A stretch of DNA of 50,647 bases, from positions 1 through 50,647 of the forward strand of contig CANJSG010000004.1 of NCBI GenBank assembly GCA_947476875.1, written 5' to 3'. Of this stretch, positions 18,466 to 45,688 are shown one piece after another. A program made the translations under genes and the position numbers. This DNA comes from Verrucomicrobiota bacterium. GTDB taxonomy: Bacteria; Verrucomicrobiota; Verrucomicrobiia; Limisphaerales; CANJSG01. Position 1 is the first letter of the stretch, and each line of letters opens with the position of its first letter. Under the pieces are notes generated by a model that was not told the DNA's origin, did no database searches, and was given only the letters and a program-made list of their open reading frames with translations.

Positions 18466-18756
18466 ACAAAGGAGTGTCTTCACACCGAGAACGATGGCTG
18501 ACTTGCCTGCGGCCTCGGACACAGACCTGGCGGTAAGGCGAAGGCTCCTGCCGAGCCGCCGCTGTGCGTCCTAAAATCCTCGCGGCCACAGCGGCCAAGC
18601 AATTGGCCTCGGTCGCCTTCGAGCTTCCCGCGAGAAGCGACCCTGTTGGTCGGAGGCCCCAAGGCGGCTCGGCGGGAGCCGTCGCCCTACCACGCGGGAC
18701 TTCACCCGACTCTGCGAGACTTCACCTCTCTTGCTCGGGTTGACGACACTCCTTGG
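18466..18756. repeat. About 290-bp inverted-repeat-bounded interspersed element (MITE/REP-like)
   Basis: Imperfect terminal inverted repeats ACAAAGGAGTGTCTTCACACCGAG (18466-18489) and CTCGGGTTGACGACACTCCTTGG (18734-18756). Internal inverted pair GGTAAGGCGAAGGCTCCTGCCGAGCCGCC (18532-18560) and GGCGGCTCGGCGGGAGCCGTCGCCCTACCA (18663-18692). Confidence 0.7.
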
Positions 18757-21240: not shown

Positions 21241-24200
21241 CTACTCCACGACGAGCACGCCGCGCATCATGCGCCAGTGTCCGGGGAACGTGCAGATGAA
21301 CGGGTAGTCGCCGGGAGCGGCGGGAGCGGTGAAGACCAACTCGGCTTTCCGGCGGGGCTGCACGAGCGGCGTGGCGTGGAGAACTTTTGCCGACGCAGGA
21401 ATGTAGCCCCGCGCCATGCCGTCGGGCTGGGCGGCCAGCTTGTCGGCGAGTGCGCCGACTTCCTCCGCGGAGCCGGGCGCGAGGATGAGGAGGTTGTGCA
21501 GCATGAGGTCGGGATTCTCGAAAATCAGGCGGACCTTCGCGCCCGCTTTGACCCTCAGTTCCCTGGGGGCGAACTGCATCTTGTTCGGAACAGCCTGGAC
21601 CATGAGGGCGTCGCCCAGGCTGGCGTTGGCCTTGGCGAACTCCGCGGCCATGGCGTTGAGCTGGTTGGTATCGGCCGCGGGATGCGCCGTGGTGAGGCGT
21701 TGGCCGAGCGGGTCGTAGAGAAACACGGCTGGCGGGTTCTTCGCTTTGCGGAAAACGCAGTCGATCACGTTCAGGCCGGCGCGGAGATCGAGTTGGACCT
21801 GCTGGTCGTTGATCCACATGGAATCGGAGGAGAGCAGCTGCACACCGTTGACCAGGACATCGAGGTAACCGTGGCGGACGGAGAGGACGGCGGGCTGCGC
21901 GGCGTCCGCCTGGACGAACGTGCGGCGGGCGCCTTGGCCGACGTCGAGCCATTCGGCAAGGCGGGTTTCGGGGGCGATCTCCAGAACGGGAACGCTGCGG
22001 CCTTTGGCGGGTTTGGTGCCGTGCTTGAGGTCGGCGAGCATGTGCTGCACGTCGGCGTTGGTGGTGGTCAACCCATGAAGCGCATGCTCGACGGCGGGCA
22101 TCGCGGGGCGGAGATGGGCGATGGCGTCCACGACTTCCATCTGCACGCGCGGATGCGGATCGGCAGCCATCTGGTGGAGGAGGTCGGCGGTGTTCGGAAG
22201 TCGATCGGCTTGGAAACGGATCATGCGGACGGCGGCGGCACGATACTGGAACGACTCCGCCTTAAGGAGCTCGGCCAGCAGCAAAGGCCGGGTCTGTTCG
22301 AGTCCCTCAGCAACGAAGAGAGCCTCCAGTGCGGACTGGTTAAAGTCCGGCTTCGTGCGGTCGAGGCCGGTGACCCACTTGTCCAAAGCCGGGAGCATGG
22401 ACGTGCCCTTCTTTCGCAATTCGATCCGCGTGTGGTGGCGCACAATGTCCTGCGTGTTGCTTCCGAGGAGGGAGAGCAGCTCGGCAACGCCCGCTCCCTC
22501 GATGCGCGGGAACGTCTTCACCACCGGTTTCGCATTGTGAACGACGCGCCAGATCCGGCCGTGGTCATGGTCCCAGTGCGGGTCGCGCATCGGGTGCTGC
22601 GCGTGGCCGATGATCGGGCTGCAGAAGTCGGACACGTAGAGCGCGCCGTCGAATCCAAACTCGAGATCGGCCGGCCGGAACGCGGCGTTTGGCGAAGAGA
22701 CCACGTCCAGCCGTTTCGAACCGCGGACCATGCCCTTCTCGTAGTCGTAGTTCCAAAGGGAGACGGAGTAGTTGCCGAGCAGCGCGGCGCTGGCCATTCC
22801 CTGTTGGTATTCGTCGGGGAAGTTCGGGCTGGAAATGCTCGCGATGCCGGAGCCTTTGCCGTTGCTGCCCGTGTTGCCGTAGCTGAACGGATGATAGACG
22901 GCGAGCGGCGTCCACGTGAGGGCCAGCGTGTCGAGCGGCAGGCCGTCGCCATACATCTGGAAAATGTTGCCGGTGCGGTCGTGGGTGATCTTCCACGGAT
23001 TGGGCGTGTTGCTCTGCCACTCGGTCTCGACCCGTCCGGTGCGCGGATTCAACCGGTAGGTCGTGGCGTCAATGCCGCGCACGACCCCGAACGGCGTCTC
23101 CAGCGTGGAGCGGTGGAACACGCCGTCGCAGAACAGCACGTGTCCAATGGGATCGGTCGCGATCATTCCGCCGTGATGCGAGTCGGTCACGTCGATGCCG
23201 CGGAACAGTTCGCGCTTCGTGTCGGCCTTGCCGTCGCCGTTGGTGTCGGTCATCAGCCAGAGCTTCGGTTGTTCGGAAATGATGACGCCCCACTCGGTGA
23301 AGGCGACGCCATCAAGGGCGTCGAGGCCCTCGGCGAAGGTGGTGCACTTGTCGGCCTTGCCATCATGGTCGGTGTCTTCGAGGACGATGATTTTATCCTG
23401 CGGCGGCAGCCCCGGCACGGTGTGGGGAAAGGACGGCATGGTCACCACCCAGAGCCGTCCTCGAGCGTCGAAGGCGATCTGCACGGGATTCTTCAGCTCG
23501 GGAAACTCCGCTTCGGATGCGAAGAGATTCACGGTGTAGCCGTCGGCGACTTTGAACTCCGCCTGCGCTTCGGCCGGCGGTTTGATGATGCCGGTGTTCT
23601 TGCCGTCGTCATGGCCTTTGATCGGCGGCAGGGGCGGCAGCCACGGAAGCGGGATATCGGCGAACTTATTGGCCGGAGTCGCGGCCAGTTCATGGACGAC
23701 CGCTTCGGTCGCGGCGATCATCTCGTGGTAGCGCGGAATCTCGGCGCTGTTCTCCTCCTGGCGCTTGCGGATGCCGTAATAGAGGTCGGCGTTCTTCGGG
23801 CGAACAACCTCGGCGACATAGTAGTTCTTTCGCGCGACCGCCTTCACCACTTCAGCCATGCGTGCGGAATCCGCTTTGGCCACTGCCGGGGCGCCAAGCA
23901 GTGCCCGAGCGATGGTCCTGGTCATTGCATGATTGCCCGCTTCGTTGAGATGGAGGCCATTCGAAGTCAGCCGGGTTTTGCTTTTCGAATAGGCCTCCTT
24001 GCTTGACGCGAACAAGTCCACGAAGAGCGCCCCGCGCGCCTTCGCCGTATCGCTGATGGCCTTGGCGTAGGCCGCCACGTCGCTGTTGCGCTTCTCGACA
24101 TCCAGCACTTGGCCGCCTTTTTCCAATGCCGTCGGGGAAAGCAGGACCAGCTTCGCGCCGGGATGAAGCCGGACGATCTGGTCAAGGTATCCATCGAGCT

Positions 24201-41300: not shown

Positions 41301-42179
41301 CGCGACGGGTCATCGACCAACCGCGCCCGCGGCCTGGCCGGCGGCGGCTCCACCAATCGCGTGGGCGACATGGCTTCGAATTCTCGGGACGGCCAGCGGC
41401 AGCCGGGACAAGGCGAACCGCAGGAAGGCAATGATCCCCAGCAGGGCCAGCAACCCGGCGACCAGGGCAAGCAGGGGCAAAAGGGAAAACAAGGCCAAGG
41501 CAAACTGGGCGACCGGGCCCAGAAAGGCCAGCCCGGCCAAGGTCAGGGAGGGGAACAACCCGGCCAGGATGGTCAGAAGGGCAAGCAGGGACAGAAGGGG
41601 AAACAGGGCCAGGGCAAACAAGGTCAAGGCGGTCAGCAGCCTGGACAGGGACAGGAAGGCGAGCAGCCCGGTCAAGAGGGCCAGCCAGGTCAGGGCGGGC
41701 AAGGCGGCCAAGGAAACCAGCCCGGTGATCGGCAGAATTCCCAGCAGCAGCGCCAAGGCGGCCAGCAGCCACAGGCGCGCGATGGTTCGCCCGGATCATT
41801 CGATTTCGGCGGCGCCTTGGGCGGTGGTGGAGCAAACGGCGGGCCGTTGACCGGTGACAATTTCCGCGAATGGAACGAGCGGCTCAGCAACGTCGAAGAG
41901 ATGGTCGGCGACGCCCGCCTCCGCGGCGACCTCGCGCAGGTGCGCGACCGCGTCCGAGCCGTCCGGGCCGATTTCCGTCGCACCGGCCGGGAGCCGCAGT
42001 GGCAGATGGTCCAATCCCAGATTCTGCAGCCGTTGGCCGAGGTGCAGAACCGCATCGCCGAGGAATTGGCCAAGCGCGGTTCCCGCGAGGCTCTCGTTCC
42101 CATCGACCGCGACCCGGTTCCCGCGCAGTTCACCGAGCAGGTCCGCCGCTACTACGAGAAGCTCGGCCGCGACAACTGA
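38304..42179 (+). CDS. DUF4175-like large membrane protein with coiled-coil and collagen-like Gly/Gln-rich C-terminal region
   Basis: N-terminal TM helices, extracellular beta domains, long charged coiled coil, then G-Q-K-rich tract; third gene of the DUF58/BatA cluster. Confidence 0.8.
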   Translation: MIEPSLRRQLEPVARRLRIERLHRRLIRLWLVLGAVSLAAMALQLATGVSFAAVVPFVLLVGVLGGLFMGFAGEFWQPDYRDVARRLEALDPGFKSLLTTAVEQQPDPVTGRYSFLQARVVREAVAACSERDWNRSVAGFGLAGVRFGQLASFAFAAAMTWLLYSNGSLPGGSSVALMLEGYEVTPGDARVEKGSSLVVLARFSGRVPADAAMVLEQAGNTNRIALSRSLNDPVFGGTIRDLQADGVYRIEFGSKVSRSYKLAIFEFPRLEKSDAEIQFPAYTQLDSKKVPDTRRVSAVEGSTVRMELLLNKTVRSASLVGPEGTIALDLPAGRAAALLPSMVLTQSQTLRLVLVDAEGLTNKIQTQFVFDALPNRPPALKWISPKGDQRVSALQEMAFRAEASDDFGLVGYGFSFIMPDGSEKEVRVAGTGDTNNLKIIVPPNEKKAFDHLFSLEGIPAAVDDLLTYHVWAEDIGPDGKLRRTQGDLFLSEVRPFEEIFRKAPPQDGQSEQQQQQQEQQQGNEATKLADLQKQVLNATWKLQRQLSGTRLPSGFKTNLSVVLESQKKAIELAEAMKEKVQDPRGQSFLDTALKQMERAVKELGAANKDPFRLSEATSAENAAYSALLKLSARETQVTQRKPGQGGGGGGGGQQQQQLDQLEMNEKENRYETKSQAQQAKAQSPEQKEQLDFLARLKELAQRQQDINERLKEMQNSLEAAKTEKEKEELRRELKRLREEQRELLADADAARQKMERNDKNGELAEERKSLDETRKDMEKASESLNQEKVSDALASGSRVEKDLKNLQDEVRKKTSSQFSEAIRDMREEARKLAENQKELGEKLAGEKKPERRTLSSETPTDKIAEQLGQQKAALTNLIGSMTQVSQQAEASEPLLSKRLYDMVRQQTLNNTEDSLDKAKLLAERSLNREASQFEQRAREDINKLRQGVEQAAESVLGDEAQALELARKELDELSNQLNRELAARGGNGRQGTNGNGGFLRDGSSTNRARGLAGGGSTNRVGDMASNSRDGQRQPGQGEPQEGNDPQQGQQPGDQGKQGQKGKQGQGKLGDRAQKGQPGQGQGGEQPGQDGQKGKQGQKGKQGQGKQGQGGQQPGQGQEGEQPGQEGQPGQGGQGGQGNQPGDRQNSQQQRQGGQQPQARDGSPGSFDFGGALGGGGANGGPLTGDNFREWNERLSNVEEMVGDARLRGDLAQVRDRVRAVRADFRRTGREPQWQMVQSQILQPLAEVQNRIAEELAKRGSREALVPIDRDPVPAQFTEQVRRYYEKLGRDN

Positions 42180-42243
42180 TCGCCGTCGCGATTGGCTGCG
42201 AAAAGCTGTTGCCTCCGCGCGGACGCTGGCAACCTTCTCCGCC

Positions 42244-43884
42244 ATGAAGCCTTCGCTCCGGTTTCGATCCGCATTCCTTGTTCCGGCGTTCGCCGCCTTC
42301 CTCGCGCTGGTATCCGGCTGCGGCCCACGTGAGTTGGTCATCGACCGCGCCGCGCGCGAACAGACGCTCATGATGGGCAACCATTCCGAGCCGCGCGATC
42401 TGGATCCGCAGATCCTCACGTCGCAGCAGGAATACAACATCATGATGGCGCTCTTCGAGGGGCTCACGGCGCCGAATCCCAAGGATCTCAGTCCCGAACC
42501 GGGTGTCGCCGAACGCTGGGATGTCGCGCCCGATCTGATGTCCTACACGTTCCACCTGCGGAAGAACGCGAAGTGGCAGAACGGCGATCCCGTCACGGCG
42601 AAGGATTTTATCTACTCGTTCCAGCGGATGCTTTCGCCGAAACTCGGGTCGGAATACGCCTACATGCACTGGGTGGTGAAGGGCGCGAAGGAGTTCAACG
42701 AGGGCAAGCTGAAGGATTTCACCAAGACCGGTTACTCCGCGCCGGACGACTACACGTTGAAGGTCGAACTGACCGGTCCGACGCCCTATTTCCTGGCGAT
42801 GATGTATCACCAGTCGTGGTTTCCGATCCATCGCGCCACAATCGAGAAGTTCGGGCCCATCGATGAACGCTCGACCCAGTGGACCCGGCCGGGAAACCAC
42901 ATTGGGAACGGACCATTCCGTCTGAAGGAGTGGAAGCCCAACCAGGTCATCACTGTCGAGAAGAGCCCGACCTACTGGGATGCCGCAAAGGTCACGCTGA
43001 ACCGGATCCAGTTTTTCCCGATCGACAGCCAGGATTCCGAAGAGCGCACTTTCCGCGCCGGCCAGCTTCATATCACGCAGTCGTTGCCGCAGGCGAAGAT
43101 CGACGTCTACAAGGCCGAGCATCCCGAGTTCCTGACGATCCATCCCTTCTTCGGCACCTACTTCTTCCGCATGAACGTGACCAACGGAGTGTTGTCCGAT
43201 GTGCGCGTGCGGCAGGCGTTGGGAATGTCGATCGACCGTGAAGCCCTCGTGAAGACCGTGGCCCGGGGCGGTCAGCTTGCGGCCTACAGCATCGTGCCGC
43301 CCGGGACCGCCGGCTACAACGCGCGCACGCAGGTGAAGTTCGACATCCCGGCGGCGCAGGACCTGTTGGCGAAGGCCGGGTTCCCCCAAGGAAAGGGCTT
43401 CCCGAAGATCGAGGTGCTCTACAACACCGACGACGGACACAAGAGCATCTGCGAGGCGCTCCAGCGGATGTGGAAGCAGAACCTCGGCATCGACATCTCG
43501 ATCGTGAACCAGGAATCGAAGGTCTGGCAGGACACGATGATGCAGATGAACTACCAGATGGCCCGCTACGCCTGGATCGGCGACTACCTGGATCCGAACA
43601 GCTTCCTCGACATGTTCCTCACCGGCGGCGGCAACAACCAGACCGGCTGGTCGAACAAGGAGTTCGACCGCCTCATCGAGGAAGCGGGCCGGACCTCGGA
43701 TGCGTCCAAGCGCATCGGGCTCTTCCAGCAGGCCGAAACCATCCTGGTGAACGAAGCGCCGACGATCCCGATCTACTTCTACACCCGCGTCGCGCTCGTG
43801 CGTCCCGAGGTGAAGGGCTGGGAGCGCAACCTCCTCGACATCCATCCCTACAAATACGTGTCGCTGGAAATGCCGACGAAGTGA
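42244..43884 (+). CDS. Peptide ABC transporter substrate-binding lipoprotein (OppA/SBP_bac_5 family)
   Basis: Lipobox LVSGCG; SEPRDLDPQILTSQQEYNIMMALFEGL; YTFHLRKNAKWQNGDPVTAKDFIYSFQRML. Confidence 0.94.
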   Translation: MKPSLRFRSAFLVPAFAAFLALVSGCGPRELVIDRAAREQTLMMGNHSEPRDLDPQILTSQQEYNIMMALFEGLTAPNPKDLSPEPGVAERWDVAPDLMSYTFHLRKNAKWQNGDPVTAKDFIYSFQRMLSPKLGSEYAYMHWVVKGAKEFNEGKLKDFTKTGYSAPDDYTLKVELTGPTPYFLAMMYHQSWFPIHRATIEKFGPIDERSTQWTRPGNHIGNGPFRLKEWKPNQVITVEKSPTYWDAAKVTLNRIQFFPIDSQDSEERTFRAGQLHITQSLPQAKIDVYKAEHPEFLTIHPFFGTYFFRMNVTNGVLSDVRVRQALGMSIDREALVKTVARGGQLAAYSIVPPGTAGYNARTQVKFDIPAAQDLLAKAGFPQGKGFPKIEVLYNTDDGHKSICEALQRMWKQNLGIDISIVNQESKVWQDTMMQMNYQMARYAWIGDYLDPNSFLDMFLTGGGNNQTGWSNKEFDRLIEEAGRTSDASKRIGLFQQAETILVNEAPTIPIYFYTRVALVRPEVKGWERNLLDIHPYKYVSLEMPTK

Positions 43885-43891
43885 CAAAGCC

Positions 43892-45688
43892 ATGAATGTT
43901 TCTCCGATCCGCCAGCCGGTTGAAATGGTAGGGCGAAGGCTCCCGCCGAGCCGCCTCAACGCTTCTGAAAACCGACCGGTCGAACCGGCAACGCGCGAAC
44001 CCCAGGTGGGTCGAGCCGCGCTGCGACTCGACGGCCAGCCGCAGCGCGGCTGGCCCCACCTTCCCGCATTCTTGTCCCGCTCCCTCGCCGCCGTTCTCAC
44101 GTTCGCCCTCGTTCTTGTCGGCTGCGGATCGAAGGAGACCACCGTGCAGACCGGCGACCGCGACCAGGTCCTGCACAAGGGCAACGGAACCGAACCGCGC
44201 GACCTGGATCCGCACACCATGATCTCGGTCGAGGAGGACAACATCATGCAGGCGCTGTTCGAGCCGCTCGTGTGGCGGCATCCCGACACGATGGCTCCGA
44301 CGCCGGGCGTGGCGGAGAAGTGGGACATCTCAGCCGACGGCAAGGTCTTCACGTTCCACCTGCGCAAGAACGCCCGCTGGTCCAATGGCGATCCCGTGAC
44401 CGCGCGCGATTTCGCCTACTCCATGCGGCGGGCACTGACGCCGGAACTCGCCGCTGAATTCGCCTTCTACCTTTATCCCATCCGCGGCGCGGAAGCCTTC
44501 AACACGGGCAAGTCGAAGGACTTCACCACTGTCGGCGTCGAGGCCGTCGACGATCTCACGCTGAAGTTGACCCTTGCCGAGCCGACGCCCTACTTCATGT
44601 CGCTTCTGACCATTTCCACCTACATGCCCGTGCACAGCGCCACCGTCGAGAAGGCCGGCGGCGGTTCCCGCAAGGGAACCCTGTGGACGCGTCCCGGAAA
44701 CCACGTCAGCAACGGGCCCTTCACGCTCTCGGAATGGTCTCCCTCCAAGCACATCACGCTCCGGCGAAACACGAACTACTGGGACGCCGCCAACGTGAAG
44801 CTGGCCGAAGTGCGCTTCTACCCGATCGAGAATTCCGACACCGAGGAGCGCGCCTTCCGCGCCGGGCAGCTCCACCTCACCGCCGCGTTGCCGACTTCGA
44901 AGATCGCGGCATACAAGAAAGATGAGCCCCAGTTCCTTCGCACCGTCCCCTACCTCCGCGCGCAATACATCGGCTGCAACGTGACCAACGGCGTGCTCGC
45001 CAACCGTCTCGTCCGTCGTGCGCTCGGCCTCGCCATCGACCGCGAAGGCATCGTCAACACCGTCACCCGCGGCGGTGAAACCCCGGCGTGGTCGTTCGTC
45101 GCGCCGAAGATGGCCGGCTACGAATCCCGTGCGCGCCTTCCCTTCGATCCCGCCGCCGCGAAGAAGGCCCTGGCCGACGCGGGATTCGCCGACGGCAAAG
45201 GGTTCCCGAAACTGCAGATGGTCTTCGACAACGCCGAGATCACCAAGATCACCGCCGAAGCGATCCAACAGATGTGGCGCGCGACGCTCGGCATCGAAGT
45301 AGGGCTGCAGAACATGGAGAAGAAGGTCTACCTCGACCGCATCAACTCGAAGGACTACGAGCTCTATCTCGGCGGTTGGACGCCGGACTTCCCTGATCCC
45401 ATGGGCTTTCTCGAGATGTGGGGATCCAGCTCCACGGCGAACTACGCCGGTTTCCGCAATGCGGCCTACGACGACCTGCTCGCCAGGTCCGGCCGCGAAC
45501 TCGAAGTGCCCAAGCGCATGGAACTGATCCGTCAGGCGGAGGATCTGTTGACCGACGAAGCGCCGATCCTGTCGATCTACCACCACGCCCGCGTCTACCT
45601 CAGCCGTCCGTCGGTGAAGGGTTGGCATACCAATCCGCTCGACACGCACGCCTACAGCCGGGTGTTCCTCGAAGCCGGCGGCAAGTGA
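43892..45688 (+). CDS. Peptide ABC transporter substrate-binding lipoprotein (OppA family), paralogue; true start may be TTG at 44072
   Basis: TEPRDLDPHTMISVEEDNIMQALFEPL; FTFHLRKNARWSNGDPVTARDFAYSMRRAL. The first 60 codons are repeat-derived; a compact lipoprotein signal (L)SRSLAAVLTFALVLVGC begins at 44072. Confidence 0.88.
   Translation: MNVSPIRQPVEMVGRRLPPSRLNASENRPVEPATREPQVGRAALRLDGQPQRGWPHLPAFLSRSLAAVLTFALVLVGCGSKETTVQTGDRDQVLHKGNGTEPRDLDPHTMISVEEDNIMQALFEPLVWRHPDTMAPTPGVAEKWDISADGKVFTFHLRKNARWSNGDPVTARDFAYSMRRALTPELAAEFAFYLYPIRGAEAFNTGKSKDFTTVGVEAVDDLTLKLTLAEPTPYFMSLLTISTYMPVHSATVEKAGGGSRKGTLWTRPGNHVSNGPFTLSEWSPSKHITLRRNTNYWDAANVKLAEVRFYPIENSDTEERAFRAGQLHLTAALPTSKIAAYKKDEPQFLRTVPYLRAQYIGCNVTNGVLANRLVRRALGLAIDREGIVNTVTRGGETPAWSFVAPKMAGYESRARLPFDPAAAKKALADAGFADGKGFPKLQMVFDNAEITKITAEAIQQMWRATLGIEVGLQNMEKKVYLDRINSKDYELYLGGWTPDFPDPMGFLEMWGSSSTANYAGFRNAAYDDLLARSGRELEVPKRMELIRQAEDLLTDEAPILSIYHHARVYLSRPSVKGWHTNPLDTHAYSRVFLEAGGK
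43926..43955 (+). repeat. Copy of the 30-nt GGTAGGGCGAAGGCTCCCGCCGAGCCGCC repeat
   Basis: 29/30 identical to the reverse complement of 18663-18692 and 27/29 to 18532-18560. Confidence 0.85.
44004..44061. repeat. Paired-hairpin inverted repeat within the 5' part of the OppA-like ORF
   Basis: GTCGAGCCGC-GCT-GCGACTCGAC (one mispair) followed by GGCCAGCCGC-AGC-GCGGCTGGCC (perfect). The whole is bounded by AGGTGGG and CCCACCT. Confidence 0.82.

Follow-up and report, generated by a model that had tools for sequence, protein, structure and literature searches.

REPs with a GTAG tag and the inverted dimers that they form (BIMEs) have been described by Di Nocera et al. (2013; PMC3733652), and among the Verrucomicrobia Opitutus terrae is rich in them. 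The same study describes the RPEs of Rickettsia and the intragenic REPs of O. terrae, so that palindromic repeats inside verrucomicrobial genes are already on record, and it presents genes of DNA repair and replication, including the one for DNA polymerase I, as frequent hosts. Besides, many N-terminal REPs were found to be in fact extragenic, their apparent position resulting from mis-annotation (PMC3733652). Since mis-annotated N-terminal REPs and hosts in DNA repair and replication are both covered by that work, the lipoprotein locus analysed here is ordinary in kind: two hairpin-forming repeat families have made a lipoprotein gene appear to extend 60 codons beyond its probable length. What is new is one of these families, referred to as family B, as a variant of known palindromic repeats. 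Its in-frame residence in genes is a more interesting result than the lipoprotein locus itself.

The window, i.e., the whole stretch of 50,647 nucleotides that was analysed, is contig C4 of a genome of 4.17 Mb in 317 contigs (85.5% complete), and the closest protein relatives belong to MAGs labelled Verrucomicrobia or Verrucomicrobiia, at 50–51% identity; the genome was accordingly treated as a Verrucomicrobiota MAG lacking near relatives. Repeats were inventoried through pattern, BLAST and covariance searches, while no Rfam family was matched within the window. The product of the ORF at 43892–45688 is a solute-binding protein of family 5 (PF00496, E 3.8e-99, 332.7 bits against a cut-off of 32.4). 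It shares with OppA and the SBP_bac_5 solute-binding lipoproteins the full-length family 5 domain and an LVGC lipobox. However, its score with the NCBI OppA equivalog model is far under the cut-off (342.7 vs 947 bits), and naming is therefore justified at the family level only; the OppA-like gene proper is taken as 44072–45688 on the forward strand, or 538 amino acids counted from TTG. Directly before the ORF, at 43884, ends a paralogous gene, the two products being about 47% identical. The longest ORF of this upstream SBP_bac_5 lipoprotein gene spans 41854–43884 on the same strand, and its true start is probably ATG 42244, judging by the putative signal peptide MKPSLRFRSAFLVPAFAAFLALVSGC. Both tandem genes are probably co-transcribed.

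An earlier note had proposed that the first 60 codons of ORF 43892–45688 are derived from repeats, and both of its components could be confirmed, namely an arm of family A at 43927–43955 and an element of family B at 44004–44061. They had been treated as one element; a composite mobile element made of A and B was rejected, the two families being unrelated and separate at nearly all of their sites. The core of family A, searched genome-wide with up to 3 mismatches allowed, gave 69 matches, mostly in inverted pairs, for zero matches genome-wide with the reversed control pattern. Among the loci read, 18 distinct dimers were found. As in the GTAG REPs and BIMEs (PMC3733652), a 5′ GTAG tag lies at one end, outside the stem, and is followed by a short, imperfect stem-loop (GGCTC-CCGCC-GAGCC), which is base-paired in the leader's minimum-energy fold; GGTAG opens most arms, with GTGG, GTAA and ATAG variants in the minority. 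The repeat is likewise dispersed in dozens of copies that are mostly extragenic (33 of 41 sites intergenic, 6 upstream and 2 intragenic), often form inverted pairs and mostly lie between co-directional or convergent genes. Family A differs from these elements in that its pairs, of about 139–160 bp and usually 157–160 bp, enclose a variable core of roughly 80–100 bp. Hence, family A has the descriptive features of GTAG REPs, and the forward-strand arm at 43927–43955 (GGTAGGGCGAAGGCTCCCGCCGAGCCGCC) is a truncated GTAG-type REP: the left arm stands alone, its likeness to the paired copies fades at about 43971, and a linker of no recognised similarity (43972–44003) leads to element B. The match of 29 out of 30 positions to 18663–18692 announced in the earlier note is real (97% between 43926–43956 and 18662–18692), but it had been given without stating that this copy is on the opposite strand, as a reverse complement; it is the right arm of a complete inverted pair of 158 bp at 18533–18690.

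Relatives of the REP-associated tyrosine transposases (RAYTs) also occur in the source genome, as RAYT-like genes on contigs C29 and C6, both under the NCBIfam cut-off. Neither an A nor a B copy was found in the approximately 3-kb loci of these genes, the nearest family A copy being about 1.4 kb from the one on C29, and mobilisation by a neighbouring RAYT was rejected on these grounds. In contrast to the described GTAG REPs, the assembled contigs show no REP immediately next to a transposase gene. Since some species may lack REPtrons (PMC3733652), this result is compatible with the membership of family A in the GTAG REPs; a REPtron could also be missing from the 85.5%-complete assembly. On contig C6 (positions 21722–21952), a long host-like ORF contains, in frame, a RAYT-like sequence (NCBIfam NF047646, 65.4 bits for a cut-off of 80). 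Peptides of the GAPAC and QAGAP types flank it and return further along this ORF, and the arrangement resembles the in-frame insertion of a transposase gene.

Family B is built differently. In the window, its 58 bp (44004–44061, forward strand) form an outer stem (44004–44009 with 44056–44061), where AGGTGG and CCACCT close two back-to-back hairpins, the first at 44010–44032 (GTCGAGCCGC-GCT-GCGACTCGAC, 9 of 10 pairs) and the second at 44033–44055 (GGCCAGCCGC-AGC-GCGGCTGGCC, 10 of 10 pairs). The double hairpin reported earlier is thus genuine, and it belongs to a family with 47 sites in the genome, each near-palindromic and most of them matched on both strands. The alignment of 21 copies shows an outer stem of 6 bp and two hairpins, each with a 10-bp stem and a 3-nt loop, with 96.1% of the cells paired and changes on both sides in 11 of the 26 pairs. 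Covariation for the two-hairpin fold was 0.224, vs 0.070 in shuffled alignments and at most 0.054 in slid versions, so that compensatory changes in the aligned copies support this fold. A single long hairpin, which is the minimum-energy RNA fold of the window copy alone, was rejected for the family, its covariation (0.037) being below that of its own shuffles. The stability of the leader as a whole is not unusual (folding z-score of only −1.2). The GTAG tag is absent in 20 of the 21 aligned copies, whose ends are AGGTGG/CCACCT, and family B therefore lacks the tag that defines either described REP super-family, GTAG or CGTC. Elements on the same plan with another stem sequence exist in other families of the order (genomes G017, G030, G023 and, by BLAST, G081), and those inspected in G017 and G030 seem to lie outside genes.

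Four in-frame start codons are available, namely ATG 43892 (43892–43894, the first codon of the longest ORF and probably unused), ATG 43925, GTG 44006 (44006–44008, inside element B) and TTG 44072 (44072–44074, 10 nt after B), of which ATG 43925 and GTG 44006 had escaped the earlier note. Translation most likely starts at TTG 44072, as indicated by orthologues, codon usage and the placement of B in other leaders. In orthologues of 44–51% identity, the ATG lies about 15–36 residues ahead of the lipobox cysteine, and neither the VEMVGRRLPPSRL nor the QVGRAALRL stretch was found in any of those compared; the comparison that had been suggested as a check thus gave no orthologue with the extension. 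The scan of relatives' genomes for a spacer devoid of repeats covered relatives of at most 51% identity, none from the same genus or family, and gave no empty site. In the related tandem pair of genome G027, gene 2 starts with an ATG 23 nt past the stop of gene 1 and 17 residues before the cysteine, i.e., with a signal peptide as long as the one predicted from TTG 44072. With a simple codon-usage score trained on the genes of the window, the sequence before the TTG scored −0.24, −0.69 and −0.38 per codon, and about 0 in B, vs +0.19 in the signal peptide and +0.47 in the mature part after it. B copies also occupy other 5′ leaders, where the distance to the likely start is 7 nt for a FolB-like gene and 8 nt for a QueA-like one (both with ATG, and both named from a reading of their N-termini), and 22, 25 and 61 nt in further cases. 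From TTG 44072, the predicted signal peptide would be of the ordinary 17-residue lipoprotein type (LSRSLAAVLTFALVLVG-C, 44072–44125, with the cysteine codon at 44123–44125); its hydrophobic core and its LVGC lipobox, 17 residues downstream of the TTG, were identified by eye and do lie after the repeats, as had been noticed.

From these data, it is quite probable that 43927–44061 is non-coding, consisting of a truncated GTAG REP and a 58-bp B element in the spacer between the tandem genes (43885–44071, 187 nt, or 52 nt without the repeat-bearing part), and that translation starts at TTG 44072. The intergenic location of 33 of 41 other family A sites was counted in favor of this reading. Given that the ATG of G027 gene 2 has the same position relative to the cysteine, the simplest history would be an insertion of the repeats ahead of a pre-existing start codon, A and B having presumably entered a short spacer between two lipoprotein genes. 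The earlier idea that the use of TTG was forced by a displaced start holds insofar as TTG is the best supported codon, but no observation points to an older start having been displaced. Both repeats being GC-rich and stop-free in frame, the ORF runs back to ATG 43892 by chance; indeed, 46% of the 180-nt frames in the window are stop-free, so that 60 open codons upstream of the TTG are not above chance expectation. The OppA-like lipoprotein would then be translated from a TTG 10 nt past B, which in the mRNA would fold into hairpins between the two genes. For REPs in general, influences on the stability of mRNA or on its translation have been proposed (PMC3733652), and the same could hold for hairpins transcribed between these co-directional genes. 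Against this reading count the weakness of TTG as a start and the lack of a Shine-Dalgarno motif before it, a motif that is recognisable at few predicted starts of the window and therefore uninformative, as well as the position of ATG 43892, which follows the stop of the upstream gene by only 7 nt, an arrangement typical of coupled genes in operons. The practical lesson is that repeats in leaders produce false N-terminal extensions and conceal signal peptides; the warning of a mis-called start was sound, and had already been published for REPs (PMC3733652).

Then, the placement of family B was considered genome-wide. According to the codon score, 21 of its 47 sites are intragenic (strong coding score on both sides and a single open frame), 9 are upstream, 2 at a 3′ end and 15 intergenic. 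The upstream sites, which include the window copy, lie just before a coding region with the frame open. The intragenic fraction exceeds that of family A (21/47 vs 2/41, Fisher p = 1.8e-5), a figure to be taken as a description rather than a clean test, since the copies are non-independent and the comparison is confounded by the greater length of A and by its amber codon in one frame. The intragenic sites are read in phase 1 (11 sites), phase 2 (6) or phase 0 (4), and the window copy is in phase 1, the commonest one. In-frame copies were found at L085, L080, L078, L163 (contig C48), L165 (C9), L066, L157 and other loci. Relative to PDB relatives, B adds 22 residues to IleS, about 16–19 to DnaE and about 15 at the polymerase-domain copy of polA, a gene with two B copies, and it coincides with alignment breaks in LpxB and MutL. 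Further hosts, named from sequence reading only, are an HrpA-like helicase, FtsX-like permeases (one of their genes with three in-frame copies), a ROK kinase, an acyl-ACP synthetase-like and a Gfo/Idh-like protein. These intragenic copies are presumably translated. In its behavior, family B thus acts like the RPEs and the intragenic REPs of O. terrae (PMC3733652), with which it shares in-frame presence of a palindrome in unrelated conserved and essential, apparently functional protein genes, DNA replication and repair genes being notable hosts in both cases. It differs from them in its GGTGG ends instead of a GTAG or CGTC tag and in its 58-bp back-to-back double hairpin.

The evident location of B within translated sequence at these 21 sites, in a phase that is also that of the window copy, counts against TTG 44072 as well. 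It could be that B is a mobile palindrome adapted to genes and that it also gives the lipoprotein its N-terminus, with the true start before 44072. Its GGTGG ends do not bring in the amber codon of the GTAG tag, so that B would be readable in every frame on both strands, and, if this were true, it would mean an in-frame build-up in genes for replication and repair and for translation (DnaE, MutL, IleS and, with two copies, PolA). We regard this combined proposal as unlikely. A selected stop-free design was rejected: all six frames of the window copy are free of stops, yet this also holds for 26% of its shuffled versions, and openness by itself is therefore no evidence. Also unlikely is a start at ATG 43892 or 43925 with A and B translated as an in-frame N-terminal extension behind the original start, the ancestral signal peptide being MNVSPIRQPVEIPAFLSRSLAAVLTFALVLVGC. 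The position of ATG 43892 relative to the upstream stop, the in-frame B copies of many proteins and the in vivo expression of Rickettsia proteins with an N-terminal RPE-1 (PMC3733652) would agree with it, as would the length of 43927–44061 (135 nt, exactly 45 codons), whose absence would keep the frame; however, a length divisible by three arises by chance one third of the time. Such a protein would carry 77 residues ahead of the lipobox cysteine vs about 15–36 in orthologues, none of which has related sequence there, and codon scores are negative across 43892–44003. Initiation at GTG 44006, from the conserved AGGTGGG end of B, appears improbable: this codon is in frame and would yield a signal peptide of 40 residues (VGRAALRLDGQPQRGWPHLPAFLSRSLAAVLTFALVLVGC), close to the longest seen in orthologues, with added arginines fit for an n-region, but it would sit within the outer stem of B, where the codon score is about zero, and most orthologues start nearer the cysteine. 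Lastly, it is hardly credible that the insertion broke expression of gene 2 and left a decaying paralogue of gene 1, as the identity of the tandem paralogues and the want of a strong start codon beside the signal peptide might suggest, when the 538-codon frame is intact, scores strongly as coding along its entire length and encodes a complete SBP_bac_5 domain.

More broadly, one verrucomicrobial genome is seen to harbor a palindromic family with nearly half of its copies in coding sequence, presumably translated. To the examples of Rickettsia and O. terrae, family B adds another in which one can study how DNA polymerases and other proteins tolerate about 20 inserted residues and whether in-protein insertions are neutral.

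A few minor observations concern individual carriers. The hrpA-like helicase gene on contig C45 (L010/L066) has an in-frame complete A pair in addition to its in-frame B copy. In the DnaE of L163, a B carrier, another peptide (ASGLSQEPTDGTEAQTGRQDARP) also resembles an insert and may represent a third repeat family. Outside the source genome, G081, which belongs to another family of the order, has a B-like element (L116) that sits in frame within a long ORF and encodes a similar peptide, QVDPVALRPDVESQRDSTHQ.
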